Source: a virus. From it: a DNA stretch of 22,974 nucleotides. The stretch spans positions 1 through 22,974 of IMG/VR virus record IMGVR_UViG_3300044627_005332. The stretch is one strand, 5' to 3'. The notes under the pieces are model-generated. The model had not been told where the DNA came from. It ran no database searches and saw only the letters and a list, made by a program, of their open reading frames with translations. Shown here piece by piece: positions 2,921 to 20,928 of the stretch. Position numbers and translations under genes: made by a program. Position 1 is the first letter of the stretch. Each line of letters starts with the position of its first letter.

Positions 2921-4969
2921 TTACTCTTCCATTATGGTTTTTAAATCCCGGTCAAGTTTATCTAATTGATCTTCTGCCGACTTATTATAATTAGTATCCA
3001 TAGACTCAGCAATACCTTTTGCTAAACGATCTGATGTTACATATCCAAGTCCAAATATATTTCTAGTTGAATTTTGTCCATATTGATTTTTGCCCATCAG
3101 AGATTGAATATGTCTGGTTAATGGACCTCTTGACCTTCTATCATCTGTATCTTTTTTTGTATATCTTTTACCATTTGAACCAGCAGTTAAATAAGATCCA
3201 TCAGCGTATTCAATTTTTTCTACTCTGTCGTGGTTATCTCTTTTCACAGCATTATAGTCTCTTTTAGCTGGAGCTTCTGGAGGTGGAGCTGCTAGTAAAC
3301 GTGATTTGCCTTCACCACTCGCCTCTGGAGCCTCTGGAGCCTCTGGAGCCTCTGCTGGAGCTTCCATTCCCCCTTCTGTCGCTGGAGGAGTCAATGCGCC
3401 ACCTAGGCCGCCCGGAGCCTCTGTTGGCAATTCAGTTTCTGCTCCGCCAGAAGGAGTTTCTGTGCCATATGGGGCTCCCGGCATTCCAAGGCCGCTCATG
3501 TCACCGGCAGAAGGAACATCCTGTGCAGAAGCTTCAATAGAAGCATCAACTCTCTTATCATAAAATCTTTGTCTCTCAATTTTTTGAAAATCTTCATCAG
3601 AAAGTCCAAAGATATTTTTTGAAACATATTGGCGAGAAAAGAAATTTGCTGTCATTGCCTTTGAGGCAACATCAAGCTTTTGACTAAATCCTTCAAGCTC
3701 TTGAGCTAATGCAATTCTAGATGGATTATTTAAACCAAGTGAAAAAGAAATTAGATCATCTCCTCTAAATCCTAGAGTGTAAAGATGAATCATTCCGATC
3801 TTTTCTATCTCTGTTAGCATCGCTCTTTGTAGTCTTTGAATTGTTCTTGCGAATCTAACATCCTTTTGAGCAAGTGTGGATTTATCTTCCTTATCTGAAT
3901 CAGACTGAGACAAATAAGCTTTTGGAATTTTTATTGCCGCAAATAACTTATCTTTTAGATATTTAATATCATCAATTGAATCAATTCCTTTTTGCCCCTG
4001 TAGAGGAGTAATTTTTGATACAGATCCTGCTCTTACGGGAAGATAATAATCTTCTTCAACGCTCAATGGATTATATCTTAAATCTACTTGACCAGTTGTA
4101 TCGTCTACTACTTGGTGCCTTTTTAGCTGAGTAATTACTCTTTGCATATATTGTTCGACATCTTCTGGCGGGATACCAGAAACATCAATTTCAAATACTT
4201 TTCTATCTGGAGCGCGAATAACTCTGGCAGCCATCATCGCATCTTCTACAAGGATTAGTTGTCTCCAGATTCTTCTTGCAGGATCAAGAACAGAAGTTCC
4301 ATATGGACTGAATTTATCATTTCCTAAAATTCTGAAATGTGCTATCTGCCAATTCTCAAAAGTAAGTCCTCCAGAATTCCATTGAAATTGAATATAGTTT
4401 GGATTTGTTTCGTCTTCTCCCTCTAATCTTTCAACTTCTTGAGATGGAAGTCCAATTGCAGATTTGACTCCCAATACTTCGTCTGTATCGAGATATAAGA
4501 AAAAATCTCCATACTTACACATTGTTCTCGCCCAGTTAAACAAATTAGATTCTATGTTTAATGTTTTATAGAATAATGTATTAAGAATATTTTTAATTTC
4601 TTCATTATGACAATCAATTTTAAGAAGCTTTGAAACTTCTGTAAATGTTGTCATCTCATCTGCATAAATATCTAATGCCGATGCCAGTTCTGGATAAAAT
4701 TCCATTTGCTCAAAGTCTACATATCTCTCTGAACGGCTTTGTATTGCCATGTTTCCAGAGCGAAGAGAATCAAATGGATTATAAACATTTTTCTTGTATG
4801 AAAGTCCTTGAAGAGAGTTGAAGCGACTTGCATATTTATCTAATTGATATTTTCTTTCCCTTGATGGTCTTTGTGCTCTAAAATTAATAATTGGGCCAGA
4901 GAAAAGTTTTGTTAACCTCTTAAACAAAGGAGAAGCATTATTCTTAGGATTATTTTTTTGATCTGCCAT
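2921..4969 (-). CDS. Portal protein, T4 gp20-like, with long C-terminal extension
   Basis: This is the dodecameric portal that forms the head-tail vertex and the DNA channel. The body (about residues 60-480) carries T4-type portal signatures: ERYVDFEQMEFYPELASALD at 81-100, the DLRYNPLSVEEDYYLPVR block at 296-313, and the KLFAAIKIPKAYLS segment at 341-354, followed by a helical stem/crown region rich in Arg. Length is 682 aa against 524 in T4. The excess is a Pro/Ala/Gly/Glu-rich linker (about 485-567, including an APE tandem repeat) and a basic, hydrophilic C-terminal domain (568-682). The stop codon is TAA at 2921 and the start follows the terminase stop by 9 nt with GTGAGAGTG upstream. Terminase and portal are adjacent, whereas T4 places genes 18 and 19 between them. 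Confidence 0.93.
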   Translation of the reverse strand: MADQKNNPKNNASPLFKRLTKLFSGPIINFRAQRPSRERKYQLDKYASRFNSLQGLSYKKNVYNPFDSLRSGNMAIQSRSERYVDFEQMEFYPELASALDIYADEMTTFTEVSKLLKIDCHNEEIKNILNTLFYKTLNIESNLFNWARTMCKYGDFFLYLDTDEVLGVKSAIGLPSQEVERLEGEDETNPNYIQFQWNSGGLTFENWQIAHFRILGNDKFSPYGTSVLDPARRIWRQLILVEDAMMAARVIRAPDRKVFEIDVSGIPPEDVEQYMQRVITQLKRHQVVDDTTGQVDLRYNPLSVEEDYYLPVRAGSVSKITPLQGQKGIDSIDDIKYLKDKLFAAIKIPKAYLSQSDSDKEDKSTLAQKDVRFARTIQRLQRAMLTEIEKIGMIHLYTLGFRGDDLISFSLGLNNPSRIALAQELEGFSQKLDVASKAMTANFFSRQYVSKNIFGLSDEDFQKIERQRFYDKRVDASIEASAQDVPSAGDMSGLGMPGAPYGTETPSGGAETELPTEAPGGLGGALTPPATEGGMEAPAEAPEAPEAPEASGEGKSRLLAAPPPEAPAKRDYNAVKRDNHDRVEKIEYADGSYLTAGSNGKRYTKKDTDDRRSRGPLTRHIQSLMGKNQYGQNSTRNIFGLGYVTSDRLAKGIAESMDTNYNKSAEDQLDKLDRDLKTIMEE
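3321..3356 (-). repeat. 9-bp tandem repeat inside the portal gene
   Basis: Three perfect copies and one imperfect copy of the 9-mer GCCTCTGGA (plus-strand reading) lie in tandem in the portal coding sequence. They encode the APE repeat of the Pro/Ala/Glu-rich linker, near residues 538-549. In-frame 9-bp repeats can expand or contract without a frameshift, so linker length may vary between relatives. It is locally much more G+C-rich than the rest of the window. Confidence 0.85.
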
Positions 4970-4978
4970 GTTTCACTC

Positions 4979-6562
4979 TCACTTTATTAGCCAAGAAAAT
5001 TCTCTTGCGTTGCTGTAGGCTTCTGCCCATCTTTTTCTTTTTTCCGCAGTTTGATTCTGTATCATTCCCGGTATAGAAGATTCAAATGTTCTTCCGCCTG
5101 TTCTTAGGCTACCAACGAACGCATGACGATATTGTACATCTCTTTGAGAAATTATTAAGGCCCCTTCTCTAATCCAACAGGCAATTGCTAAAGACATTAC
5201 TAAATCATCATTGTGACCTTTTATTGCTTCAGCTTTACCATTGTTCCAAACAAACGTTGTTAGCTCATTAATTAGTCTTTCAGAGTTAATTTTTATGATT
5301 TTATTTCTTAAAAATTCTTCAAGCTTAGCAATCGCAAGAGGGCGCATTTTAACATTTGTAGAAAAACCAGGAACGGCACTTGTGTCATAAGTTGCTGTCA
5401 TTGGCTCAATAAAATCATAGCTTGATTTTTTATGATGATAAATCGCCGGATGTCTCATCGTTTTAAGTTTTTCAAGGACACCGTATCCAAATGAATTATT
5501 TTCTACTACTGTTAGACAGAATCCATATTCTTTAGATGTTTCAAAAATAAGATCTGCATAAATTTCTGGAGTAAGTTTTCCACAATATTCTGCAACTTGT
5601 TCCATGGAATCAGTATCAAAAATATGAAATGCAGAGCAATCTTCTGAATCTCCACGAGCAACATCTGCCGCTAGAAGATATCTTTTTCCAGGTTCTGGTT
5701 CTTTCCAAATCCAGAAATTTCCATCGACTCCCATTCTTCTAATCGGCTTAGAGATGTTTTGCTTTGCTTCTTCAAGTATTGTTCCATCGACAATTGTATT
5801 CCCTGAGAAATTAAAAGAGCATTCATATTCCTGAGCAATATCCTTTGAGCCCATGTTTTTGGTATTTTCATCCCACCACTTTTGATCCCTATCGGGATGA
5901 GCGTCCCAATTTAATTTAATTGGATTAAAGTTATTCTTTCCAGTTTCTGCATCTGTGTAAGTCTTATGAAACCAGTTGCCAACACCCTTTGGAGTTGATA
6001 CTGCGATACAACGACCACCAGTGGCAATCGTAGGGTAAATACCTGCCCACATTTCATCCATTCCCTGAATGATGCCAGCTTCGTCAACAATAAGAAGAGA
6101 GAGTGCTTCAGAACGACCGGAATCTCCAGTTGTTGATGCGGCTTTTACCCAAGAGCCATTGTTTAATTCAAGAGTGCTCTTGTTATCATTTTTAACTTTT
6201 GCAATTTTCATCCAATCTGGAAGATTATTATACATTGTTTTGACCTTCTTAACCATTCCGACCGCAACATTTAATTGGGTTGCAACAGATAATACTGTCT
6301 TTTCTCTGTGAAATAATACCATCCAAAGAATAAAGCCCGCAGTTGCAGTCGAAAGACCCATCTGGCGAGCTTTAAGAACGATATTAAATCTATAATCTTG
6401 AAATTGTTTTATGCAATCTTCTTGAAAGGGATAAAGCTTAAAACTAATAAGTCCATGAACCGGGTGGGAAATTTTAACAAAATTATTTATAAAATAAATG
6501 GGATTTTTTCCACATTTAATTATTTCTTTAACTATTTCCTTTTTCGTTAGCTCAGCACTCAT
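4979..6562 (-). CDS. Terminase large subunit, T4 gp17-like packaging ATPase/nuclease
   Basis: This is the motor that cuts concatemeric DNA and pumps it through the portal. The N-terminal ATPase shows a Walker A variant KARQMGLST (residues 64-72), with Leu where the classical motif has the second Lys; an Arg-Gln before the Gly is usual in this family. Walker B is LLIVDEAG (D160, E161) and the coupling motif is AVST near 187-190. The C-terminal RNase H-fold nuclease shows LLAADVARGDSEDCSAF (D300), VVENN (E354) and GHNDDLVMSLA (D452/D453). Length is 527 aa against 610 in T4 gp17. The start overlaps the stop of the 196-aa gene as ATGA, indicating translational coupling, and the portal gene follows directly. 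Confidence 0.95.
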   Translation of the reverse strand: MSAELTKKEIVKEIIKCGKNPIYFINNFVKISHPVHGLISFKLYPFQEDCIKQFQDYRFNIVLKARQMGLSTATAGFILWMVLFHREKTVLSVATQLNVAVGMVKKVKTMYNNLPDWMKIAKVKNDNKSTLELNNGSWVKAASTTGDSGRSEALSLLIVDEAGIIQGMDEMWAGIYPTIATGGRCIAVSTPKGVGNWFHKTYTDAETGKNNFNPIKLNWDAHPDRDQKWWDENTKNMGSKDIAQEYECSFNFSGNTIVDGTILEEAKQNISKPIRRMGVDGNFWIWKEPEPGKRYLLAADVARGDSEDCSAFHIFDTDSMEQVAEYCGKLTPEIYADLIFETSKEYGFCLTVVENNSFGYGVLEKLKTMRHPAIYHHKKSSYDFIEPMTATYDTSAVPGFSTNVKMRPLAIAKLEEFLRNKIIKINSERLINELTTFVWNNGKAEAIKGHNDDLVMSLAIACWIREGALIISQRDVQYRHAFVGSLRTGGRTFESSIPGMIQNQTAEKRKRWAEAYSNAREFSWLIK

Positions 6563-7503: not shown

Positions 7504-7653
7504 TTACTTAGATTTGCTGCCCTTGCCTACCTTTTCGCTCCAGCCTTTGGTGTTTGGGTCGCCAGCTTTTGGCCAATTGTGGCCTTTGCCTGAGCCTGGA
7601 TTTTGAGTATATGGCGCAGCTTTACCTGGGCCGTGTCCTTTTTGTTCTGACAT
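7504..7653 (-). CDS. Basic Gly/Pro/Lys-rich peptide, 49 aa
   Basis: A short gene supported by a perfect AGGAGG seven nt before its ATG at 7653. The 49-aa product starts MSEQKGHGPGKAAPYTQ and ends KVGKGSKSK. It contains 10 Gly, 9 Lys, 5 Pro and two Trp (W27, W38) but only 3 acidic residues, so it is strongly basic, hydrophilic and probably disordered. No membrane segment or known domain is seen. Its stop lies 8 nt before the zinc-ribbon gene, so it is the first gene after the terminator at 7692-7729 and may lead the packaging operon. It could bind nucleic acid or be a minor virion protein; function unknown. Local G+C is higher than in its neighbours. Confidence 0.82.
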   Translation of the reverse strand: MSEQKGHGPGKAAPYTQNPGSGKGHNWPKAGDPNTKGWSEKVGKGSKSK

Positions 7654-7691: not shown

Positions 7692-7729
7692 TAAAATAAA
7701 AAGGCGTCAAGGGTTTAATCTTGACGCCT
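7692..7729 (-). terminator. Strong intrinsic terminator (10-bp stem, U-tract)
   Basis: On the minus strand a perfect 10-bp stem AGGCGTCAAG/CTTGACGCCT with an 8-nt loop is followed by TTTTTATTTTAT. This is a textbook Rho-independent terminator for leftward transcripts. It lies 17 nt beyond the stop codon of the 17-aa micropeptide and separates the DNA-processing operon from the packaging operon. The plus-strand side has no T-tract, so it acts in one direction only. Confidence 0.92.
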
Positions 7730-7746
7730 CCGAGAAAACAAGAAAA

Positions 7747-7800
7747 TTATTTCTTTGGTTTCTTCTCTTCCTTTTTAGGTTTTTCTACTTTCTTTGCCAT
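7747..7800 (-). CDS. 17-aa lysine-rich micropeptide
   Basis: A tiny open frame encodes MAKKVEKPKKEEKKPKK: 9 Lys, 3 Glu and 2 Pro in 17 residues. The case for translation is its start region: AAGGAGGT at 7812-7805 is a near-perfect Shine-Dalgarno sequence 4 nt before the ATG, and no other start codon is served by it. A CTATTTAT promoter candidate begins 33 nt upstream of the ATG and an intrinsic terminator follows the stop by 17 nt, so it could form its own transcript of roughly 100-140 nt. It follows the Mre11-Rad50 gene by 33 nt. Possible roles are a nucleic-acid-binding peptide, a small regulator, or an RNA with a coding side function; none can be chosen from sequence. Confidence 0.65.
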   Translation of the reverse strand: MAKKVEKPKKEEKKPKK

Positions 7801-7833: not shown

Positions 7834-10800
7834 TTAATTGATGTAAGCAAATCCCTCTGAATCTTTTTGAATTTCAATAATTTTATCAACTGAATCTTTT
7901 AGGGTATCAAGATGGGTAATTAATAAAACAAGCTTAAACTGCGTCTTAATCATCTCCAATACTTTAATAAAACTTTCTAAGTGTTCTGCATCAAGAGAAG
8001 TGGCAGGTTCATCAAGAATAAATACATCACTTACAGGCAGGCTTCCACATTTAATCAAAGCCAATCTGATAGCCATAGCAACCAATGACTTCTCAGCACC
8101 AGAACAGTTTTCAACCGCTCTTGGGCTTGCATTTGGATGCTGAATATAAATCTCTAGTTTCCCATCTTCATTTGCAAAGTATGCCTCAAACTCCACAATA
8201 TTTGATAATAGAGTATTAATCTCTTCGTTAATCACAGGAAGTGTTCTCTTGATAAGTTCAAAAGGTATTCCGCTGTTATGAGTACATTTTAAAAACAATT
8301 CATAAGACGAATATTCTTTCTTTAGTTTATTCAATGCCTCTATCTCTGCTTCATAGTTATCAATCTGATTTTCTAATGTTGCAAGATTTACAATTGCTTT
8401 CTTATTCTCTTCTTCATCATTCTTAAGACATTCTGCACTAAAGTTTTTCTTCTTAGTGAGATTGTCTCTTTCACTTTTTAGTTCATTAATATTGTTATAA
8501 AGATCCTTATTAGACTCATAACGATTAATAATTTTTTCATTTTCAACAAGTTCAGATTCAACTTCAGATTTAGTATTTTGAAGAGCAATTACTTCTTTAA
8601 GAAGAGTTGAGGTTTTCTTCTCCGACTCAAAAGATTTTATATTTAACTTTGTATATTTGTCTATATATTCATTAACCTTATCAATGTCTAGCTTTAATAG
8701 ATCTCCGCGTAGTTTTGCTTCTTGCTCCTCTAGCGCCTTTAAAGCCATCTCTACGACTGAGATTTCTTCTAAAGAATCTAGTGCGCTCTTCTTAAAATGG
8801 CACTCTTTATATTGGTCTTTACCGCAGGCGGCGACATCTAATAGTTTTGCAGATCCTTTATAGATCGAAAGATGATTAGTTTTAATCTTTTTCTCATAGA
8901 TTAAAGCATCAATTTCTTTCAAAACCTTCTTGGAAACTTCTTGTTTTTCTTTAAGTTCGCTAATATTAAGTTTTTCTACAACTTGCTTAATCTTCTCGAC
9001 TGTTTCTTCGTGCGTCTTTATCTCTTCGTTCTTTTTTTCTATACCAGAAGTTGTCAAGAATAGTTGTGAATTAAGTTCGCCATGAATTATCCATGCCTTC
9101 TCTATGTCAATTGGCTCTTCAACCTTAGATAAATCAACGTTTAACTTGTTAATTTTGTCTTGGATATTTTCAAGTTCTGCTTTTGATAAATTTACAGTAT
9201 TGTTAGTTTCCGCTAATTTATTAATTGCTAGATGATGTTTAGCGTGAATATCTCCAAGGATTTTTGAGTAATCCTTCTCGGACTTCTTAATTATTGTTTT
9301 TAATTCATTGGCATATTGATTTGCTGGCTTATGTTTGTTTTCAAAGATTTGTAGATCCAAAAAGTTAGCAAGAATTTCTTTTCTTCTTGTCGAACCTTCG
9401 TTGATAAAATCTAATGAACCATGCTGGGTTGATAATGAAGTATTACAGAAATCTTCAATAGTTCCAATCTCTTTGCGAATGTTTTTATCTGTCTCATTTC
9501 TATCATTACCATTTAATGGATCGCCAGATAATTCAGCCTCAACAGTGGTCTTACCTTCCTCAACTAGCTTGCCTTTTGATTTCTTAACGTTCTTTTCTGT
9601 TTCTCTGAAAATATATAAATTATCTTTGCCTAAACAAATTTCAACAGAGCCTTTACCAAGCGTCTTTCTTTCATTAACAATGTCAAAATTTTTACGAATC
9701 TTCTTTGAAGTTGAATTAAATAAAGTATAAAGCAAGCCGTCAATAATGCTAGATTTGCCAGAATAGTTTTTACCAAAGACGCCAACGATTCCAGACATCT
9801 CGCTGAAATCTATCTTATTACCTTCTTTATAATTAAAGAGGTTATCCCACTCAAACTTCTGAAGGCTCCACTTTACATCTCTTGCAACTCCATCGGCTAC
9901 TTCGGAATCGAGATTAAATTTAGTGTTAATCTCCAGCACATCTTGTATTTGCTCTTCAGTAAGATTCTCGGATGTAAGGAATTCTCGAATTAGTTCTTGC
10001 TGAACGTTGTTGTCTCGTAGATTTAACTTTGTTTTGTCTACATCTTCAATCTCATTTTCAACTTCTTTTGCGTGCTTATTGACTATAACAATGGATTTTG
10101 GCTTACATCTATTGTTAATATCGTCCTGAATTTTTTGTACTTCGTCTTTTGAGTAATATTTATCTAAAATTAATCGAACATGGGAATTATCTGGAGCGTA
10201 TATTTTTCCATTTATTTTATCAAGTTCTATTGTTATGAATGGATTTGGGTTATTAAAACAAATCGGCTTTACGCTCCATTTATCTTTACTTTCAATATCC
10301 CAAATTAAAATTCCCTTATCTACGTCTTCTCCAAAATTCTGCTGAACTAGAGACCCACAATAAGCAACTTTATCAGTCAGAAATTGTTGTTTATGAATAT
10401 CCCCAAGAAGACCATAATCAAAGTCATCAAAGATCGACAAGTCATCATCGGTGTTTTTCATCGCCCATCCTAGATCAGTCTTGGCTCCTTGAATTGCTCC
10501 GTGGTAAAGAGCAATATTAATCTTGTTTGGATCTGTTGGTTTTATCCAATTATCTCTATCAAAGATTGAGAGAACATTGAGACAAAAATTATCGTTTATG
10601 TGATGTTCACCAGAGTTCTTTAATAGATGAATGTCTGGGTTGTTTAATGCCTCTACGATTGGAGTAATAGCGTCCTGACGATCTAAGTTTTTTAGATTAC
10701 CATCATGATTGCCGAGAATAATGTAAAGAGGAGCAATATCTGCTAGATTTGTAAAAAACCTGCTTGCAACTTGAACAAACTCTGGTGAAATGTTTGTTTT

Positions 10801-10944
10801 CGTGTGAGCAATATCTCCGCAAATTATAATCTTATTAACTTTCTCTTTCTCAAGAGTATTATACATTTGTTCAAAGACGTTTTCGTAAACACCATGATGT
10901 TTTAAATTTTTAATGTGTATGTCACCTAGGTGGCTTATTTTCAT
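7834..10944 (-). CDS. Fused Mre11 nuclease-Rad50 SMC ATPase (gp47-gp46 fusion)
   Basis: One 1036-aa protein carries both halves of the Mre11-Rad50/SbcDC complex, which processes DNA ends for recombination. Residues 1 to about 300 are a metallophosphatase-fold nuclease: LGDIHI (D8, H10), CGDIAH (D44), LGNHDG (N79, H80, D81), YHGA (H148) and LGDIHK (H184). Residues from about 360 to 1036 are an SMC-type ATPase: Walker A GKNYSGKSS (391-399), long coiled coils, a cysteine pair at 707 and 715 in the hook position, signature CSGAEKS (947-953), Walker B VFILDEP (D978, E979) and H-loop LLITHLD (H1011). T4 encodes these as separate genes 47 and 46. I chose ATG at 10944 because it overlaps the primase stop as ATGA with AGGAG just upstream. 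An ATG at 10998 would add 18 residues inside the primase gene and before the conserved LGDIH strand. Confidence 0.95.
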   Translation of the reverse strand: MKISHLGDIHIKNLKHHGVYENVFEQMYNTLEKEKVNKIIICGDIAHTKTNISPEFVQVASRFFTNLADIAPLYIILGNHDGNLKNLDRQDAITPIVEALNNPDIHLLKNSGEHHINDNFCLNVLSIFDRDNWIKPTDPNKINIALYHGAIQGAKTDLGWAMKNTDDDLSIFDDFDYGLLGDIHKQQFLTDKVAYCGSLVQQNFGEDVDKGILIWDIESKDKWSVKPICFNNPNPFITIELDKINGKIYAPDNSHVRLILDKYYSKDEVQKIQDDINNRCKPKSIVIVNKHAKEVENEIEDVDKTKLNLRDNNVQQELIREFLTSENLTEEQIQDVLEINTKFNLDSEVADGVARDVKWSLQKFEWDNLFNYKEGNKIDFSEMSGIVGVFGKNYSGKSSIIDGLLYTLFNSTSKKIRKNFDIVNERKTLGKGSVEICLGKDNLYIFRETEKNVKKSKGKLVEEGKTTVEAELSGDPLNGNDRNETDKNIRKEIGTIEDFCNTSLSTQHGSLDFINEGSTRRKEILANFLDLQIFENKHKPANQYANELKTIIKKSEKDYSKILGDIHAKHHLAINKLAETNNTVNLSKAELENIQDKINKLNVDLSKVEEPIDIEKAWIIHGELNSQLFLTTSGIEKKNEEIKTHEETVEKIKQVVEKLNISELKEKQEVSKKVLKEIDALIYEKKIKTNHLSIYKGSAKLLDVAACGKDQYKECHFKKSALDSLEEISVVEMALKALEEQEAKLRGDLLKLDIDKVNEYIDKYTKLNIKSFESEKKTSTLLKEVIALQNTKSEVESELVENEKIINRYESNKDLYNNINELKSERDNLTKKKNFSAECLKNDEEENKKAIVNLATLENQIDNYEAEIEALNKLKKEYSSYELFLKCTHNSGIPFELIKRTLPVINEEINTLLSNIVEFEAYFANEDGKLEIYIQHPNASPRAVENCSGAEKSLVAMAIRLALIKCGSLPVSDVFILDEPATSLDAEHLESFIKVLEMIKTQFKLVLLITHLDTLKDSVDKIIEIQKDSEGFAYIN

Positions 10945-11879
10945 ATTACTCCTAATTCTTGTTGTAGTATTGTATCGTAATTCATTAATCTGGCACAAGA
11001 TTTTCTTTTCTGAAATTCTTCTTTCGTCATTTCACCAGCATCTTTATATGGCAGGATATCTACCTTATAAACTTCAATATCGTAGTTTATTAACTTTCTT
11101 ATAATATCATTTTCTTTTTTACTTGCATCTGGATCCAGTGCTGTATAAACAGTAGAATCATAACTGACTATTTTTTGAAATAATTTACTCTCTTCTCTTA
11201 AAGTCGAGCCAAGTAATGGGATCGCATTATTTCCGGCTTTAATTGCATCAAATATTCCTTCCACAAGTACAATGTCGCTATCAAAATCAATATATAGCTC
11301 ATTAAATATAATATCCTTAGAGACTTGTGGCTGTTTGAATTTGCTGAATTTATCACCAACAACAGTTCTTCCCACAAAGAAATTTAAGTCTCCTTCTGTA
11401 TTAAAAGAAGGGATAATCACACGATCTTTGTATTCTCCTTCTGAGCAGAATCCGATCTTCCAATAAAGAGTGTCTTGAGGAGTTATTCCTCTCTTTTTCA
11501 GGTAATTAGAATATTTTTTAAAAGATATTGGATTAGAAATAGAAGTTAGTGTTGTAAAACCGTCTGGCAAAGAAACTATTTCTTCTGTTGCCTGTTCTGT
11601 TTCTGAGAACAAATCATCAAGATTTGTATTTAAATCAACTTCTCCGTCTATCTGTTTCCATTTCTGGAACAATTCAAACGTGGCTTTCTTCCTCACAAGC
11701 TTTCTTAGGTTGCCGCGAGAATCGCATACCCAACACTTGAATTTTCCTTTTTCAAAATTTATTGATAATTTCTTTTTTCTGTGATCACAAAATGGACAAT
11801 GGTAAATATATTCATTTCCAACTTTATGATATTCGCCAAGAAAAGAGCTTATAATATTTAGCTTTTCAGAGATCTCCAT
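10941..11879 (-). CDS. DNA primase, DnaG/T4 gp61-like, 312 aa
   Basis: The enzyme makes RNA primers for lagging-strand synthesis. An N-terminal zinc-binding domain shows C28-P-F-C31 and C49-W-V-C52 (CX2C-X17-CX2C). A catalytic Toprim core follows: RVIIPSFN (153-160), IVLVEGIFDAI with E207, and TALDPDAS with D249 and D251. The length is close to T4 gp61 (342 aa) and much shorter than bacterial DnaG, and there is no fused helicase domain, so a separate phage or host helicase is expected. The start overlaps the resolvase gene by 22 nt, and the stop overlaps the Mre11-Rad50 start as ATGA. The three genes therefore form a translationally coupled replication/recombination unit. Confidence 0.92.
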   Translation of the reverse strand: MEISEKLNIISSFLGEYHKVGNEYIYHCPFCDHRKKKLSINFEKGKFKCWVCDSRGNLRKLVRKKATFELFQKWKQIDGEVDLNTNLDDLFSETEQATEEIVSLPDGFTTLTSISNPISFKKYSNYLKKRGITPQDTLYWKIGFCSEGEYKDRVIIPSFNTEGDLNFFVGRTVVGDKFSKFKQPQVSKDIIFNELYIDFDSDIVLVEGIFDAIKAGNNAIPLLGSTLREESKLFQKIVSYDSTVYTALDPDASKKENDIIRKLINYDIEVYKVDILPYKDAGEMTKEEFQKRKSCARLMNYDTILQQELGVI

Positions 11880-12382
11880 TGTAAATAACCTGCTTTGGCA
11901 ATAATAAAACTGTCACTTCTATCCATAGATCCTGGGACTGGATTTCCGTGGGCGGTCAATTCTACCTTAAAATCAGGTTCTTTGTCAAGTACTCGCTCAA
12001 ATACGACTTCTTTTGCTTTTCTTCCCTTCTCAATTTTAACACCATATGATTTTCTTGCTGTTGCTGCCGAGATAAATTGAGGTATAAGACCTATTATATC
12101 ATAACAAATCCATGAAACAATACCATTAAATCTCATAAGGGTTGAAATAGTTTTTGCAGAGGACATCCCCTTTGAGAAAGACATCAAAGGTTCTTCTATG
12201 TATACTGCTTTAATATTATATTTTTTATCGAGCTCTTCAACATACTTCTTAATATTTGCAGATTTTACGAATAAATCTTTTACCTTTTCAAGACGAACAG
12301 CTTCGCAAGAGACTATTTTACCCTCTTCGTCTAAAATCGTAAATGCTGTAGTTGTTGTTGATACGTCAATGCCTAAAATCAT
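11858..12382 (-). CDS. RuvC-like Holliday junction resolvase (RNase H fold), 174 aa
   Basis: The protein begins MILGIDVSTTTTAFTILD, a first beta-hairpin with catalytic D6, as in RuvC-type resolvases. The second acidic site is AVYIEEPL (E63/E64) and the C-terminal pair is in SMDRSDSFIIAKAG (D154, D157). Together these give the four-acidic-residue RNase H-fold active site. Such enzymes cut branched DNA and would debranch concatemers before packaging, the job T4 gives to the unrelated endonuclease VII (gp49). The gene heads the operon with primase and Mre11-Rad50. No clear Shine-Dalgarno sequence precedes the ATG, which is unusual in this window, but the start is fixed by the closeness of D6. 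A related RNase H-fold nuclease of another type cannot be fully excluded. Confidence 0.85.
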   Translation of the reverse strand: MILGIDVSTTTTAFTILDEEGKIVSCEAVRLEKVKDLFVKSANIKKYVEELDKKYNIKAVYIEEPLMSFSKGMSSAKTISTLMRFNGIVSWICYDIIGLIPQFISAATARKSYGVKIEKGRKAKEVVFERVLDKEPDFKVELTAHGNPVPGSMDRSDSFIIAKAGYLQWRSLKS

Positions 12383-12421: not shown

Positions 12422-13720
12422 TTAAATATCTAATTTTAATTTAATTGTATAGTCAGTATCCTTTGTCTTTCGAAGAGGGTTTGCTAATTTTGCTATTCCT
12501 ATCATTTCTCCTTCTTCATTATAGATGGCTATTTCACTTATATAAACTTGTGGATTATATTTTGATTCATAGTTAGAAAAAGAACTGGAAATAGCATTCT
12601 TAACAACAATTTTATCATTCTCATAATATTTTCCGTCAGATGGAATAAATAAAGCATTTGAAGAAGCAGTATGAGTTGTACCATTAACAGTTATAGAAGA
12701 AGTTTGTCCTAGCAACAACTTATCTGATTGGCCTCCGCTGATAAAAGTTCTGTTGTTGCTCCAAGTAAAATCGTTTTTATCAGCAGTACAAAACATTGTA
12801 AGAGTATTAACTTGATTTGATCCTTGAAAATTTATTTCAAATGAAGCAGAAACAATAGGGGTATTAAATAAGGCATTAGTTGTTGTAACTTTATGAGAAC
12901 CAAAATGAACCCATCTTAAGTTATCGGACACTGGAGCGTTAGAAAAATTTACATTGAAAACAGAGGAAGATACTGGCTGTATATATCTTTCACTAACTGA
13001 AGCTAGTTGAGCACTTCCTGTTAATATTATTATTCCCTCATCGTAAAGAATTGATCCTATTTCTGCATTAATAAGAGAAGGATTAAACGATGAAGAAGTT
13101 TGGATTATTTTTGTATCTTTATATTTATCAGATGCTTCAGCTACAAGAGTTCCAGTTACATAAATTTTTAAATTTAAAGTTCCTGGTTGTATTTTATTTC
13201 CATAAAATGCTTGTGGAATTTCTATTAAATTTATATCTTTTTTAGGTCTAATGTAGTATTGGTAGTTATTTGCAGATAGAGGATTTAAAAAAACTTTAGA
13301 TTTATACTGAGGGACTCCATCATCCTCTAAGTACTCGCTTATCTTTAAGTTGGTATTTTCTAAATTATATTTTGGAAATACATTTCTTAGTGCTAAAATT
13401 TTTTTAAGAGTTAAATATTCTGTATATAAATAGTCAAAAGTGTTTCCAGCTTTTCTTATATAATTCCTTTTTATTGTTGGATTGTATGAAAGAGTGCCAG
13501 AAAATTCATAATCTAAAAATACATTACTTTTTGTAAATTCTTCTGTAACAGAGCAAGTATAATTAAAGTTGTTTTCTAAAAAGGTTACAGAGGAGCTTAG
13601 TCTATTTCCTTCACTTATCTGATCATTAACTGTTAAATTGCCATTGTATAAAACAATTTTATACGATGGATTACCTACTATTGTGTTATAGAATAAATCA
13701 TTTTTTTCAAATTTTTTCAT
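12422..13720 (-). CDS. Virion structural protein, 432 aa, paralogue of the next-upstream gene
   Basis: A Ser/Thr/Asn-rich, probably all-beta protein without signal peptide or membrane segment. Its C-terminal region (about residues 310-432) matches that of the 333-aa protein: KNDFTWSNNRTFISGG, then KIVVKN, then YISEIAIYNEEGEMIG and AKLANPLRKT, ending KLKLDI. The middle also shares a SILYDEGIIILTG strand pattern with GTLFYQAGIVVLN. It carries about 40 extra residues (QSDKLLLGQTSSITVNG onward) inserted in the shared region. From memory, related sequences occur as unannotated structural proteins of aquatic phages. It follows the 333-aa gene by 1 nt with no obvious Shine-Dalgarno sequence, so coupling is likely. 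Exact virion location (tail, baseplate or head) is unknown. Confidence 0.8.
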   Translation of the reverse strand: MKKFEKNDLFYNTIVGNPSYKIVLYNGNLTVNDQISEGNRLSSSVTFLENNFNYTCSVTEEFTKSNVFLDYEFSGTLSYNPTIKRNYIRKAGNTFDYLYTEYLTLKKILALRNVFPKYNLENTNLKISEYLEDDGVPQYKSKVFLNPLSANNYQYYIRPKKDINLIEIPQAFYGNKIQPGTLNLKIYVTGTLVAEASDKYKDTKIIQTSSSFNPSLINAEIGSILYDEGIIILTGSAQLASVSERYIQPVSSSVFNVNFSNAPVSDNLRWVHFGSHKVTTTNALFNTPIVSASFEINFQGSNQVNTLTMFCTADKNDFTWSNNRTFISGGQSDKLLLGQTSSITVNGTTHTASSNALFIPSDGKYYENDKIVVKNAISSSFSNYESKYNPQVYISEIAIYNEEGEMIGIAKLANPLRKTKDTDYTIKLKLDI

Positions 13721-13721
13721 T

Positions 13722-14723
13722 TTAATAATCTAATCTAACAGATAATGTATAATTAACAGCATCAGTATTTCTTAGAGGTTCACTTAATTTTGCAGTAGCC
13801 AACAATTCATCTGTATCTGAATACAGCCCAACGGTCGTTATATATGAATAATTTTTATCAGTTGGAGTATTCTTAACTCTAATTTTGCTTCCACTTAAAT
13901 AAGTAGGATTGGAGCTGAAGTTGAATTCGTTAGCATCTATTCTACAATTATAAACCGTAGAGTATAGTTGAGTATTATTATTAAATTGTAAATTAACAAC
14001 CAATCTTCTGAACGAATCACAAATTTGGTCAACAGAAGCATATGTAAATCCAAGATTTGTTGATCCAGTTCCTGAGCTCGAAGATATCCAGTCTGTAGTA
14101 TTAATGGTATCAGCATTGAGCACGACAATTCCTGCTTGATAAAACAAAGTTCCGTATGTCGTACTGCCAGATGTTAAGTAATAATATTCTCCAGCTGGGG
14201 AATCTGCATAAATTGTGTTAGTTGATACACCAGTGTCTGTTAGAGTTCTTGTTCCAGCTAGCGGCGTAGTAAATGATGAAGTTCCTAAAGTTAAGCTAAA
14301 AGTTCCGTTAGCTTTAACTTCATCTTTTGTAAGAAGCCTTGATAGAGGAATAAAAATTGCGCTACTAATAACAGTAGAAGATGTGTTAACAGTAAAGTTT
14401 TTAAGATTTCCAGTTACATCAAACCCTAATAAAGTTTGGGCCATTAAATTATACATTCCAAATTTAGAAAGTACTTCTTCATATACAGTATAGCTACCGC
14501 TTTTAACTCCAACAGCAATATCAAAAATATGATTAGCTGATGAGCTTAAATAAGGATAATCATAAACCGATTGAAAAGTTCCAGCAGGAAATTTTTTTAT
14601 GTTTGTATCATTTGGCCATGTTCCATAAGTTCCAGAAACAATTGTTCCAGTTATAGGAATAAATTCTGACAAAACTTCTTTAGCTGATTGAATATCGTTC
14701 TCATTAAAAAATTTATAACTCAT
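13722..14723 (-). CDS. Virion structural protein, 333 aa, tandem paralogue
   Basis: A beta-rich, Thr/Ser-rich protein beginning MSYKFFNENDIQSAKEVL. Its last 76 residues (258-333) contain RIDANEFNFSSNPTYLSG, KIRVKN, YITTVGLYSDTDELLA, AKLSEPLRNT and a terminal VRLDY, aligning position by position with the end of the neighbouring 432-aa protein. The order Asn-Glu-Phe strand, loop, GLY strand, AKL-x-x-PLR, final LD-aromatic/Ile looks like a compact beta domain for assembly into the virion. GGAG upstream of the ATG serves as ribosome binding site, and the gene starts 12 nt after the 337-aa gene. No enzymatic motif is visible. Confidence 0.8.
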   Translation of the reverse strand: MSYKFFNENDIQSAKEVLSEFIPITGTIVSGTYGTWPNDTNIKKFPAGTFQSVYDYPYLSSSANHIFDIAVGVKSGSYTVYEEVLSKFGMYNLMAQTLLGFDVTGNLKNFTVNTSSTVISSAIFIPLSRLLTKDEVKANGTFSLTLGTSSFTTPLAGTRTLTDTGVSTNTIYADSPAGEYYYLTSGSTTYGTLFYQAGIVVLNADTINTTDWISSSSGTGSTNLGFTYASVDQICDSFRRLVVNLQFNNNTQLYSTVYNCRIDANEFNFSSNPTYLSGSKIRVKNTPTDKNYSYITTVGLYSDTDELLATAKLSEPLRNTDAVNYTLSVRLDY

Positions 14724-14735
14724 TATTTTACTCCA

Positions 14736-15749
14736 TTATGGCTGATAGGCTAATACAACTGGAATGTCTATCGTGTGGCCTATGTTTGCCCCATTTACTC
14801 TTATTGTTGTATTTATATATTTTGCAGCAACTGTTAAACCGCTTATCGGTAGGGAAGCATTAGTCTGACCATATCTATCAAAGTAATAAGCTGGGTTTGC
14901 AGCTAAGAAATCTGATATTCTCAAACTGAAAGATAAGTCTCTTCCTACTTGAGAAATATATGTAGCATTTAAAGAAGTAGCTGGCTTAGAGACCGTAGCT
15001 CCATTGTTAAAGACGTTTACTACTTTGAAAAAATTAGGATTATTTGTAGTATCGACTGAATATAAATTATAAGCTTGGTTTCTATCAAATGCGGTTGAGG
15101 TTACAATTGGCGAAGAAGAAAAAACTCCGTTTGAATCTATTACTTCTACAAATAATCTATTAGCATAAATATCAAATTCGTTCTCTTCTAAGTCTGCCAA
15201 TTCCTTTTGAACTAATGTATCTAGCGAGTCAAACCCCTGAGAGACTCTAATGTTTCTTGATACGGCTCTCGTTCCTCCGGCAGCGGCTCCAGTGCCTGTA
15301 GAAATGTTTCTTCTACCATCTATTAGACCTTTTATAGTCGTAATTCCATTTCCAACATTTGAGATGGCTGTGTCATTTACCAGTACAACGAAAGCATTTA
15401 GATTATCATTTAGTTGAGATTTGGTTACAGAATCTATAAAATCACTTTGATTTAGCTTTAATGTTGGAAGATAGAGTAGGTTTGGATTTGCGTATGTTTT
15501 TAACTTATATTGTAATCCAGTATTTGAATTTGTTGTCGGTTCCAAAATAGGAGTTATACTTATATATAAATCATAATAAGCAGATCCGCTAACGTTTCCT
15601 AAATCAAATAATCTATAATCAATCTCCTCATCGGCAACTGCAAATTTTGCAACTCTAAAAGAACCATTTCCTTGCGCTAATCTTCTGCGCCCAAGTTCTG
15701 TTAAAACTGCGTCTAATATAATGTCGCCAGAATTATCTAAAAATGCCAT
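14736..15749 (-). CDS. Virion structural protein, 337 aa, with VLT-x-x-GR N-terminal motif
   Basis: The N-terminus reads DIILDAVLTELGRRRLAQG followed by FRVAKFAVADEEIDYRLFD, a motif that recurs at the start of the 275-aa protein upstream. From memory this signature is frequent in structural proteins of uncultured aquatic phages; its function is not established. The rest is beta-rich with many Asn, Thr and Ser and no membrane segment. The gene has a 73-nt leader region, the longest between structural genes, with a CTATTTA promoter candidate 28 nt upstream of the ATG and GGAG as ribosome binding site. It may therefore begin a transcription unit with the 333- and 432-aa genes. Confidence 0.8.
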   Translation of the reverse strand: MAFLDNSGDIILDAVLTELGRRRLAQGNGSFRVAKFAVADEEIDYRLFDLGNVSGSAYYDLYISITPILEPTTNSNTGLQYKLKTYANPNLLYLPTLKLNQSDFIDSVTKSQLNDNLNAFVVLVNDTAISNVGNGITTIKGLIDGRRNISTGTGAAAGGTRAVSRNIRVSQGFDSLDTLVQKELADLEENEFDIYANRLFVEVIDSNGVFSSSPIVTSTAFDRNQAYNLYSVDTTNNPNFFKVVNVFNNGATVSKPATSLNATYISQVGRDLSFSLRISDFLAANPAYYFDRYGQTNASLPISGLTVAAKYINTTIRVNGANIGHTIDIPVVLAYQP

Positions 15750-15770
15750 TTTTTAACTCCTTATCTTTAT

Positions 15771-15777
15771 TAAATAG
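15771..15777 (-). promoter_or_regulatory. Candidate promoter P3 (CTATTTA)
   Basis: CTATTTAATAAAG reads on the minus strand, 28 nt before the 337-aa gene start and just upstream of its GGAG. It shares the core with P1 and P2 and lies in one of the few gaps in the structural block long enough to hold a promoter. No -35 element was identified. Confidence 0.4.
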
Positions 15778-15792
15778 TCTATCAATTTATTT

Positions 15793-15820
15793 TTTACTTA
15801 AGTAAACATTCTTTGTTTAC
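15793..15820 (-). other. Overlapping palindrome and hairpin in an intergenic gap
   Basis: A perfect 14-bp palindrome TTTACTTAAGTAAA (15793-15806) overlaps a 7-bp stem GTAAACA/TGTTTAC with a 5-nt loop (15802-15820). The GTAAA arm is shared, so the two structures exclude each other. On the minus strand neither is followed by a U-tract, so it is not a standard terminator. It begins 2 nt past the 1013-aa stop codon and may stabilise or process the mRNA end. Confidence 0.5.
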
Positions 15821-15822
15821 CT

Positions 15823-18800
15823 TTATCTTGTTCTCTTGCTCATCCACGCTCTAGACCGCGAAGCACGAAGACGCGATTTACGCTTAGAAACTTTTTTGCT
15901 TCTAGAACTTGTTGGCGGGGTTACCACAATAACTTGAAATTCAGAGCTGGTTAAATATATTTCTTCTGCTGGTTGAAATAGATCTTTATTTTTGTAAATT
16001 ACTAATTTATATTTTTTATTTGTTGTAGATATTGTAGATGAATCCTTATCTACTTTAAGATCTATATTGTAAGACAATAATATTTGATTTTTTGGATTAT
16101 CTACTCGTATCACTCCAAAAGTTTTAGAAAAATCATTTGTTGGTTTAGAGTTATCAATTCCTAAAATTCGCCAACTAATTTTCTTTATCCTATTGGCCGG
16201 ATAATTATTAATTTTTAAACTAAAAGTAATAGTATCACCTTTATTTAACGTACTAGATGGACTGGTTTTTACAAGTTCATAAGTAACGTCTTGTAAGTTA
16301 TTTGTTTCAAATTCTAAATCGTTATAAGGATTAGACCCTGCTGAATCAGTAAATTTTTGCTGAAATGTAATCTTATTGTAGAGATTAATATCACTATACT
16401 CGCTAGGATAATAATATATTTTATTCGTTGATTCTTCTGTATCAATAAAATTAATTAATTCTTTTCTTGTTAAGGAATTAAAGCCATTAATAATTACCTG
16501 CCAAGACTGAAAAAAATCATTCAATTTAGGATTGTTAGGATCGTTAAAATACAAAGACGCTTTTACTTTCGAAAGATCATAATAAATTAAATTATTTATC
16601 TGATTATCACGATAATTAGGTATTTTATACTGTGCAGTTTTTGAAAAAAAATTTAATAAATTTTCTTGATTTTTTCTTGGATAATCAAAAGTCAATTTTA
16701 CTTCAGGCTTGGAAAAAGAATTTGCTTCATAAAACTTATTCTCTCCCACTACAAGCTCCAATTCTTCATATGTTAGCTTTTTGCTATCCGTGCCAAGACT
16801 CAAATAATCAATTAAGAAATGGCGAACATTTATATCTAATTTTCTTTTTGTTTTTGGAGAAGTAATTCTTAATTTTATTGTTTGCCCGGTTGCGTAATCA
16901 CTTGAAGCAACTAGCTTAGAAGTATTAGACCAAAATTTAATAAGTTTAGAATTTTCATTAATTAGTTTGGCTAAACCTTGAATTTCTTTACTAGGAGTTA
17001 TCTTTAAAGCATATTTATTATTTACAACATCTTTTAAACCTTTTAGATCTTGGCTTGCTTTTTGAACATCTGATGGAGATATCTTCAGTTTTTTTAAGAA
17101 AGATGTCTTATACTTTATAGCTTGTTTATCCTCTGGTATAAAGAAACTATAATCCAAATAGGTTGAATTATCTGTCGATATCATTTCTAATTCTAGAACT
17201 TTTGTTGGAGAAGAAAAATGCTGAACAAATTCTTTTTTGTCTTCCGGTATTGTTTTTACCTTAATTTTTTGAATTTTTAAATCAGAAAATTCCTCATATA
17301 CATCATATTCTCTTTGAGATAAAAAGCAGTAATAATATTTTTTATTTACTTCTATATTGTCTTCTAATACAACACTTTCATTTATGGTAATATTTTGACT
17401 ATTTTTTGGTAATTCAAGAATCTTGTATAATTTTTCTTTCTGTACTATATCATCATAATTTAAAGGCTTTTCTTGATCTCTATATACATATACTTTTTGT
17501 AAAGTTAGATCGTTTGAATGTATAATTTGCTCTGGAGATAAAGTTTTGGTCAGAATTGCTCCATTTGTGATCTTGCCATCATTGCTTTTAAATTCAGATT
17601 TAGGATTTATTTTCTTAAAAGTTTCAAAACACATTTCATTTAAAGTTATCATAAGTTCTTTAAATTCTGTTCTTGAATACAAGCCGTTAAGATTAGAGTT
17701 ATTCTCCTCAAAATAATCAAGCATTTTATCGCAAATGTTCCCTACTTCAGTTGGATCAACTAAATTTAATAAATTGATTAATAACTCTTTTAGATATAAA
17801 GGATATTTTTTAATCAAGTTTTTTAATCCAATGCTCTTTGTTGAGTATAAATTTTCAAGATTTGAAGCAGACACTGAATCAGAATAAAATATATCATCTT
17901 CTTTGGCATTAGTTGCAAAAAATTTATATTCTATTGATACCGCTCTTAAAATATAATGAGCTACATTAAAATATAATACAGCTGGCTTTAAAAGGTTATT
18001 TATAATTGTATCAAGAGAAGTATTTGATAAAGAAGTTAAATTAAAAATAAAATAATTTTTTGGAGGATCAAAATCGCTTATCTTTTCTTGCTCCATTCTT
18101 AGGCAAGATAAAAGCTCTTCATTGTTTCTCTTTAAAACAATTTGTTGTGGAGGTTGAACATTAGAGTTGTAAGATGTTCTAGTAGCTTTTAGTTTTATTA
18201 CCGCTTTATTTTTTACTTTTTGCCTACTATTCACCAAAACATCTAAATAATTTGGAGCTTCTCCTTCTCCTTTACTATAATAATCTTTTCCATCTTTATC
18301 TACTAAAATACTTCCTTTTTTAGAATATTCTAAATTAGGTTCATTTTTTAGCTGTAGCTGGTAGTATCCTTCTTTAAAATATTTGTATAGTGTATTATAG
18401 AAAACACCTTCGGCGTTTAGTTTAAAATCGTTTGTTTGGCTTATAGTTCCATTATTTATAAAAGAATTAAAAAAATTCCAGTTTTTTGGATTATCTAACG
18501 ATTTATCGTTTTTTATACTATCAAGAATAACGGAAAGGCCAAATAATTCCCCAGTTGTAAAATACTTTAAAGGGAGCTTTATTTGTTCAAAATTTACATC
18601 CATATTTTTTATTTCAGATAAATCATCAAAACAAGAAAATCTTAAAAAGAAATAAGGAATTAAATCTTTATAGTATGTAGGCTGTTCTCCTAATTTATCT
18701 TTTGCATAATATTCAAATCCTAAATCTGAATTTAGTGTAACACTTTGAAGTAGTTCATACGGATTCTGAGGATTTTCAGTAGTACCTTGATACTTCTCCC

Positions 18801-18864
18801 ATTTGCCCGGAGCATAAGCCGTGTAGACTATTGAATTTTTAAAATTATTTACGTCAAAAGCCAT
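15823..18864 (-). CDS. Large virion structural protein, 1013 aa, with basic C-terminal tail
   Basis: No family is recognised for most of this protein. It starts MAFDVNNFKNSIVYTAYAPG and is rich in Asn, Lys, Tyr and Phe with mixed alpha/beta character. A VDKDGKDY loop (188-195), resembling a DxDGxD metal loop, also occurs in the 275-aa protein. Residues about 861-980 look like an immunoglobulin-like or Calx-beta-like domain: TYELVKTSPSSTLNKGDTIT, then INNYPANRIKKISWRI, DFSKTF and a KYKLVIYKN strand. The final 29 residues are extremely basic (13 Arg/Lys, including SKKVSKRKSRLRASRSR), encoded by noticeably more G+C-rich DNA. The gene starts 2 nt after the 405-aa stop, with GGAG inside the preceding gene. 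Size and neighbours suggest a tail, baseplate or other major virion component. Confidence 0.78.
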   Translation of the reverse strand: MAFDVNNFKNSIVYTAYAPGKWEKYQGTTENPQNPYELLQSVTLNSDLGFEYYAKDKLGEQPTYYKDLIPYFFLRFSCFDDLSEIKNMDVNFEQIKLPLKYFTTGELFGLSVILDSIKNDKSLDNPKNWNFFNSFINNGTISQTNDFKLNAEGVFYNTLYKYFKEGYYQLQLKNEPNLEYSKKGSILVDKDGKDYYSKGEGEAPNYLDVLVNSRQKVKNKAVIKLKATRTSYNSNVQPPQQIVLKRNNEELLSCLRMEQEKISDFDPPKNYFIFNLTSLSNTSLDTIINNLLKPAVLYFNVAHYILRAVSIEYKFFATNAKEDDIFYSDSVSASNLENLYSTKSIGLKNLIKKYPLYLKELLINLLNLVDPTEVGNICDKMLDYFEENNSNLNGLYSRTEFKELMITLNEMCFETFKKINPKSEFKSNDGKITNGAILTKTLSPEQIIHSNDLTLQKVYVYRDQEKPLNYDDIVQKEKLYKILELPKNSQNITINESVVLEDNIEVNKKYYYCFLSQREYDVYEEFSDLKIQKIKVKTIPEDKKEFVQHFSSPTKVLELEMISTDNSTYLDYSFFIPEDKQAIKYKTSFLKKLKISPSDVQKASQDLKGLKDVVNNKYALKITPSKEIQGLAKLINENSKLIKFWSNTSKLVASSDYATGQTIKLRITSPKTKRKLDINVRHFLIDYLSLGTDSKKLTYEELELVVGENKFYEANSFSKPEVKLTFDYPRKNQENLLNFFSKTAQYKIPNYRDNQINNLIYYDLSKVKASLYFNDPNNPKLNDFFQSWQVIINGFNSLTRKELINFIDTEESTNKIYYYPSEYSDINLYNKITFQQKFTDSAGSNPYNDLEFETNNLQDVTYELVKTSPSSTLNKGDTITFSLKINNYPANRIKKISWRILGIDNSKPTNDFSKTFGVIRVDNPKNQILLSYNIDLKVDKDSSTISTTNKKYKLVIYKNKDLFQPAEEIYLTSSEFQVIVVTPPTSSRSKKVSKRKSRLRASRSRAWMSKRTR

Positions 18865-18866
18865 TT

Positions 18867-20084
18867 CTACACTCCAACTATAAAATATTCGTATGCTAAT
18901 TTATCATAATATTTTTTATTCTTTAAATTTATTCTACACATAACTGCTGTTTGATTTAAAAGCTGCGGCAGATTGTTGCTGTTTACCTCTTCCCATGTTT
19001 CAAATAATGAATTTTTTTCTACAGATGATAAATATTCTAATTTAAATTTCATTACGTGTCTAAAAAAATAATTTGGGTAAAGAAAAGGGTCTGACAGAAA
19101 TAAGTTATATCTTTGTTTTTCTATTTGAGTTGTTGGCTTAAAAATTTGATCTGTGTTTAAGATAAACATTAGAAACAAATTAGCGCTATTATTTAATGAA
19201 CTCGTCTTAAGACTAACATCTTCTAGTTTAAATATATTATCTTCAGAAAAGGTACTGGCATTTACAACATTTGTTCTTGTTTCTCTTGGAGAAGTGGGAG
19301 AATCTATTTTCTCTTCTCTAATGTCATAGATTCCTTTTGTAAATAGAAATCTTCTATAATCATAATCATTTCTTACATTTACTAGTTTAGTATAAAAATC
19401 AACTAAAGAATCAACATTTTCATAAGGTATAGATGTAGAAGAATTGTTTATAATCATTGATGAGAAGTTGGTAAATCCATCTTCTTGAACTGAATAATTT
19501 TGTATTAAACTATTCGATTGTACTGGGCTGCCAGCAAAATTAACTCTTTCTTTTACGTCTATAAATTTTGTAACATCTATATCCCTTGTCTCAAAAGTGA
19601 TCGTAGTTCTTTGAGTATTATTGTATTTAAGTAATGATTCTTCATGTTCTACGACTTGATTAAATAAAGTTTGGACATCTTCCTTTGGCCCGAAAGAGTT
19701 TCTAAAATTTTCATTTTTTAACTTTTCTTTTAAATGAGAATACAAATTCAATCTAAACGAATGTTGAAATAATATTTTTATTGGGTATGTTAGTCTTCTG
19801 TTAAATTCTATTACATACGTAGAAATTCTTCTGTTAGCGAATAAAGATACGTTTCTTATGGTGCAATAATCTTCTGCCTTGTATACTATTTTCTCTGAGT
19901 CTTGGAGAAGTATTCTTGTATACACAGAGTCGCGAATTATACGTCCTAGCTCTTCATCATTAAAATATTTAGATAAACTATTAGCATCTTTTATTGCTTC
20001 AAATTCATTTGCGTTTAGAATTACATAAGGGTTGCCCCTCGCGTTAATTGACATATGTAATTCTGATAAGTAATTTTTTTTCAT
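18867..20084 (-). CDS. Putative virion protein, 405 aa, unknown family
   Basis: I do not recognise this protein. It begins MKKNYLSELHMSINARGNPY, is rich in Asn, Phe, Tyr and Leu, and has an even mix of predicted helices (such as HLKEKLKNENF and a YDKLAYEY end) and strands (TTITFETRDIDVTKFIDV). No signal peptide, membrane helix or catalytic motif is visible. It lies 2 nt from both neighbours, so it is part of a coupled run of structural genes. A virion or tail-assembly role is inferred from position only. The in-frame Met at residue 11 is an alternative start. Confidence 0.7.
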   Translation of the reverse strand: MKKNYLSELHMSINARGNPYVILNANEFEAIKDANSLSKYFNDEELGRIIRDSVYTRILLQDSEKIVYKAEDYCTIRNVSLFANRRISTYVIEFNRRLTYPIKILFQHSFRLNLYSHLKEKLKNENFRNSFGPKEDVQTLFNQVVEHEESLLKYNNTQRTTITFETRDIDVTKFIDVKERVNFAGSPVQSNSLIQNYSVQEDGFTNFSSMIINNSSTSIPYENVDSLVDFYTKLVNVRNDYDYRRFLFTKGIYDIREEKIDSPTSPRETRTNVVNASTFSEDNIFKLEDVSLKTSSLNNSANLFLMFILNTDQIFKPTTQIEKQRYNLFLSDPFLYPNYFFRHVMKFKLEYLSSVEKNSLFETWEEVNSNNLPQLLNQTAVMCRINLKNKKYYDKLAYEYFIVGV

Positions 20085-20086
20085 TA

Positions 20087-20914: not shown

Positions 20915-20928
20915 TTTATTTCTCCAGA

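Follow-up and report, generated by a model that had tools for sequence, protein, structure and literature searches.

A fused Mre11-Rad50 gene in a lineage of uncultured aquatic phages

The window analysed here, a 22,974-base viral fragment from an uncultured aquatic phage with a T4-type portal and terminase (Pfam, PHROG), encodes at positions 7834-10944 a complete nuclease of the Mre11/SbcD type and, after it, a complete ATPase of the Rad50/SbcC type. Judged from its sequence and modelled structure, the product is probably (with a confidence of roughly 0.8) a single-chain Mre11-Rad50 complex, which would perform T4 gp46/gp47-like end resection in phage recombination and replication. The fusion is not new in kind: N-Mre11-Rad50-C proteins were reported in Mimivirus, a phage, plasmids, bacteria and eukaryotes by Yoshida, Claverie and Ogata in 2011, who considered their homologues in aquatic metagenomes to be largely or probably of phage origin (PMC3175470), and fusions also occur in cultured phages. 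A literature search, thin on subscription journals, found no later paper on the present phage clade.

The fused frame and its nuclease half

A first-pass annotation of this DNA had placed Mre11 and Rad50 homologues, nuclease before ATPase, in one uninterrupted 1036-aa phage frame, and Pfam, PHROG and motif evidence bear this out. Its coordinates are also correct, and belong to the minus strand, which it did not mention: the plus-strand translation contains stops throughout, and the minus-strand translation none. Pfam detects Metallophos at residues 1-184 (7.6e-10) and AAA_23 at 368-605 (8.8e-08), PHROG detects the SbcD-like phrog_100 at 1-331 (5.9e-32) and the SbcC-like phrog_77 at 266-1031 (4.5e-56), and a PDB profile search returns both SbcD/Mre11 and SbcC/Rad50 chains. 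These matches to both halves rule out chance resemblance of motifs. The features are collected in Table 1.

Table 1. Coordinates of the fused gene, its parts and its neighbours in the window
Feature	Position	Strand	Extent and basis
Intrinsic-terminator-like hairpin	7700..7731	minus	12 pairs and T tail; 3' of fusion and 17-codon ORF
Fused Mre11 (SbcD/gp47-type nuclease)-Rad50 (SbcC/gp46-type ATPase) gene	7834..10944	minus	1036 aa
Rad50 ATPase lobe II	7837..8274	minus	Residues 891-1036; CSGAEK 947-952, Walker B 974-979
Antiparallel coiled coil between lobes	8275..9324	minus	Residues 541-890; AlphaFold2 helices
Apical hook, C-x7-C replacing CxxC	8800..8826	minus	CGKDQYKEC, residues 707-715
Rad50 ATPase lobe I	9325..9873	minus	Residues 358-540; Walker A 391-399, Q-loop 507; Pfam AAA_23, alignment
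Predicted Mre11-Rad50 joint	9874..9894	minus	About 7 residues, 351-357; AlphaFold2 secondary structure
Predicted Mre11 helix-loop-helix (Rad50-binding) module	9895..10011	minus	Helices 312-326 and 330-350; both AlphaFold2 models
Flexible stretch, cap to helix-loop-helix	10012..10074	minus	Residues 291-311; pLDDT
Capping domain	10075..10299	minus	Residues 216-290; AlphaFold2 secondary structure, two models
Metallophosphoesterase nuclease domain	10300..10944	minus	Residues 1-215; Pfam Metallophos, Foldseek
DnaG-like short primase	10941..11879	minus	Pfam/PHROG; stop overlaps fusion start (ATGA)
RuvC-like Holliday junction resolvase	11858..12382	minus	PHROG 159, 2.2e-09; overlaps primase start

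All five metallophosphatase motifs claimed for the nuclease are present (D8xH10, G43D44xxH47, G78NH80D, H148 and G181DIH184), although the fifth reads GDIH rather than GHxH. This substitution of Asp for the first His, with the second His retained, is found in all 105 aligned sequences, across which D8/H10, D44/H47, N79/H80 and H148 are nearly invariant. Motif V is GHxH in the aligned S. aureus and T. maritima chains; T5-like phage Mre11, with GDLH, has the same Asp change, as reportedly does Mimivirus R555 (PMC3175470), and the Asp is therefore best regarded as a variant within the Mre11 family. As characterised Mre11 has His at this position, the Asp could alter metal use or nuclease activity. 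The His of motif II (GDxxH) was briefly a candidate for a special feature of the fusion, and was dropped because Herelleviridae have it too. Foldseek searches with residues 1-359 match S. aureus SbcD (7dog) and T. maritima Mre11 (3tho) at E values of about 1e-10 to 1e-13, and by these matches to SbcD and Mre11 the Mre11 fold is present together with its capping domain, which is among the least conserved portions in near relatives.

The ATPase half and its variant apex

The Walker A, signature, Walker B and H-loop set reported for the Rad50 half is complete, and alignment adds the Q-loop and D-loop: Walker A GKNYSGKSS (391-399), Q507, the signature S948-G949-A-E951, Walker B D978-E979, D985 of the D-loop and H1011 of the H-switch. 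Like those of the nuclease, the active-site residues are nearly all invariant or almost so (n = 105 sequences). With the whole chain as query, Foldseek finds Rad50 of the C. thermophilum (Chaetomium) MRN complex (E 3.9e-19), and E. coli SbcC/SbcCD too. Between the lobes, AlphaFold2 predicts coil helices at residues 532-555, 559-606, 614-657, 661-699, 716-751, 754-811 and 819-888.

SbcC and Rad50 of E. coli, archaea and eukaryotes carry a CxxC hook. No CxxC zinc hook stands at the coil apex of the window protein, which has C-x7-C instead, and among the matches listed the spacing over 90 sequence types is C-x6-C in 58, CxxC in 16, C-x7-C in 12 and otherwise in four; the common apex of the lineage is PCGxxxxxCKF. 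Since a CxxC pair occurs in all eight split-gene phages examined, and in the deep fused branches represented by Microcystis phage Mel-JY01, L034 and L035, the expanded spacing looks derived within the lineage. None of 14 members matches the Pfam Rad50_zn_hook profile, against which the CxxC-bearing T4 gp46 also scores weakly. With an apex that is not CxxC, the protein is classed as a Rad50-type ATPase whose apex is a variant, rather than as a classical zinc-hook Rad50, and zinc-mediated dimerisation is not assured. Tentatively, and at somewhat less than even odds, the C-x6/7-C apex might join or sense partners unlike a CxxC hook, alongside the Asp-substituted metal site of the nuclease, and CxxC may have been retained by a minority of members and by the deep branches.

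The joint between the domains

The first-pass annotation described an internal linker of roughly 60-100 residues and took it to replace the C-terminal Mre11 helices that bind Rad50. The second of these claims fails, and the first needs revision, as two AlphaFold2 models (the full chain, built with 71 sequences, mean pLDDT 84; residues 1-359 alone, mean pLDDT 85) both place helices at 312-326 and 330-350 within that stretch, which is therefore mostly a helix-loop-helix module. In place and form, the predicted helices are as expected of the Mre11 helix-loop-helix. With the first Rad50 strand beginning at residue 358, the genuine joint is only about seven residues long, close to the 9-12 residues estimated for fusions by Yoshida et al. 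(PMC3175470). A flexible stretch lies before the helices, where pLDDT falls below 50 at residues 291-304 of the full-length model and 293-303 of the shorter one. The full-chain pTM of 0.48 leaves the relative placement of domains uncertain, which makes any docking of these helices against the coil putative.

Codon comparison with L010, the sole usable pair because dS is saturated or undefined in most others, shows purifying selection on the helix-loop-helix and the joint (dN 0.06, dS 1.9 over residues 301-362). Among the matches listed, 80 of the 90 sequence types keep a distance of 211-215 residues between motif V and Walker A.

Integrity of the fusion

As the window fusion was read from a single contig, a missed stop or frameshift could in principle have created it. 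This is scarcely credible given the 99.9% identical copies from two further assemblies (L002, L003), as well as at least 104 loci with a full-length, uninterrupted fusion, forming 90 sequence types at 95% with the window included. Relatives were gathered with a fused query and the best 80 loci kept from 578 or more IMG/VR matches, so that no proportion of fused to split genes can be derived from them. Reads with a frameshift or stop between the domains had been named as a result that would overturn the single-frame reading; among the fusion loci examined, no break falls at the domain junction. Contig ends apart, and leaving aside a split Grass pair that was deliberately included (L033) and a gene cut in an apparently chimeric scaffold (L038), interruptions occur in three loci, all away from the joint: a TGA in L016, a frameshift-like break in L030 and an insert in L034. 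The TGA, in frame near position 5597 of L016, interrupts at about residue 198 a fusion that is intact elsewhere, and may reflect sequencing error, decay or recoding. In L034, a 484-kb uncultured phage (LR756508), the insert of about 0.9 kb (4672-5577) falls just past GDIH and holds a Cys-rich, homing-endonuclease-like ORF, after which the fused gene resumes in a second frame with a possible start of its own.

An intact frame might still yield a precursor or alternative product, from which a protease or an internal translation start frees a separate Rad50. The window gene does have in-frame start codons between residues 300 and 400, but they number only two: GTG336 falls in the second helix of the helix-loop-helix, and ATG383 within the fold of the ATPase. 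Both lack a convincing Shine-Dalgarno sequence and conservation as a start, and the distance across the junction hardly varies. An internal start, which the first-pass annotation had raised as a possible refutation, was rejected on these grounds, and the precursor explanation as a whole appears distinctly improbable. For the single chain, the fixed 1:1 ratio proposed earlier follows provided that the chain stays uncleaved, whereas the suggestion that fusion changes how the complex opens on DNA ends gained no support.

Gene neighbourhood and proposed role

A conserved gene order surrounds the fusion, running from two unassigned genes through resolvase, primase and the fusion itself to a pair of small genes, then terminase and portal. 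In the window, two tiny ORFs follow the fusion on the minus strand, both preceded by good ribosome-binding sites, at 7747-7800 (17 aa, Lys/Glu/Pro-rich) and 7504-7653 (49 aa, Gly/Lys/Pro-rich). At the other side, seven genes in a row on the minus strand (12422-22614; 275-1013 aa) lack PHROG matches and are probably structural by place; two of these, at 12422-13720 and 13722-14723, adjoin the resolvase and are conserved in many relatives. Rfam and tRNA searches returned no matches. Flavobacterium phage immuto (L123, MW353176.1), close to the window phage by terminase and primase, lacks the fusion at this locus and has directly after its primase a PD-(D/E)XK nuclease gene, a possible replacement.

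In 11 phage records of 147-204 kb the fusion is the only SbcC and the only SbcD homologue, and each of the 11 has one RecA-family protein; Mel-JY01 has two further, very weak SbcC-profile matches over short stretches only. Together, the resolvase and primase neighbours, the sole SbcC/SbcD status and the RecA-family protein support a gp46/gp47-like role as far as gene content can indicate one. The single chain would comprise nuclease, capping domain, helix-loop-helix, about seven residues, Rad50 ATPase, a short coil and an apical cysteine hook, and two such chains would dimerise through the nuclease and the ATP-engaged ATPase heads into the usual two-plus-two head module. This would most probably trim double-strand ends into 3' overhangs for the phage RecA-type recombinase, serving recombination-dependent replication and repair, with host DNA breakdown as a possible added role.

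Alternatively, the complex may be real and its main role another: degradation of host DNA, clearing of blocked ends or hairpins, or holding of ends without cutting. T4 gp46/gp47 are annotated as also needed in host-DNA degradation, E. coli SbcCD cuts hairpins, and GDIH together with the unusual hook could alter activity. However, the remaining nuclease residues are nearly invariant, and the gene adjoins primase and resolvase in genomes with a RecA-family recombinase, such that we regard a different main role as unlikely and favour end resection.

Distribution and origin

Trees of each half gather the fused phage proteins sampled into one clade, though on long branches, with support of 98/98 for the nuclease and 100/98 for the ATPase. 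The trees contained no giant-virus or jumbo-phage fusions, and therefore do not bear on a single origin of all fusions, for which several origins were argued in 2011 (PMC3175470). Split pairs run nuclease-first in T4-, T5-, Herelle-, Ackermann-, Campylobacter- and cyanophages, with the ATPase gene following directly or after one to two small genes. Because every split phage pair examined thus has the nuclease upstream of the ATPase in the same operon, we infer that the fusion most likely arose through merger of two neighbouring genes.

Plasmids yielded no more than two weak Mre11-like matches, both in Leptospira. Three candidate cellular copies from metagenome-assembled genomes (MAGs) were rejected: L036 is present in IMG/VR too, as an equally long contig, L037 is a contig of 7.8 kb, and L038, in the MAG 'chromosome' of a WOR-3 bacterium (CP070664.1), has phage genes between runs of N and a cut fusion, and looks chimeric. 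The bacterial-genome scan therefore holds no good evidence of a cellular copy.

The existence of the aquatic phages that were suspected in 2011 is borne out: they make up one coherent, large lineage with a fixed gene order, and the fused form is that lineage's only Mre11-Rad50; the window contributes one member to this large uncultured group. Small single-chain versions of a central DNA-repair enzyme should be useful for structural work, and their zinc hook and Mre11 metal site are naturally occurring variants.

Comparison with known systems

The present fusion resembles those described in 2011, including Mimivirus R555, in its N-terminal Mre11, C-terminal Rad50, retained helix-loop-helix and short joint; most of those fusions keep the capping and helix-loop-helix regions, and their joint fits the known complex (PMC3175470). 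It differs from R555 in size, at about 1036 against 1351 aa, and in a hook that is usually expanded. In a viral structure library, Foldseek ranks giant-virus proteins as long as a fusion at the top, with matches assessed by their length and the span of the alignment only.

Among cultured phages, matches that cover essentially the whole fused protein within a single annotated feature indicate fusions in Microcystis phage Mel-JY01 (WWT39521.1), Tenacibaculum phages pT24, PTm1 and PTm5, Chryseobacterium phages MA9V-1 and MA9V-2 and Sphingomonas phage PAU, where they bear no more specific name than AAA domain protein, metallo-phosphoesterase or DNA repair exonuclease. The Mel-JY01 protein is 31% identical to that of the window and likewise has a primase gene close upstream; the jumbo-phage proteins are longer, and share about 23-24% identity with the megaphage fusion L035.

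As the first-pass annotation stated for T4, Mre11 and Rad50 homologues are separate genes there, and so they are in each further cultured split-gene phage that was examined. Such split pairs, T4 gp47/gp46 among them, share with the fusion the same two enzymes in the same gene order, but are encoded by two genes, with a CxxC-type hook and, except for the GDLH of the T5-like pair, a GHxH motif V. The folds of E. coli SbcD/SbcC and of archaeal and eukaryotic Mre11/Rad50 also match the fusion, with the subunits kept separate.
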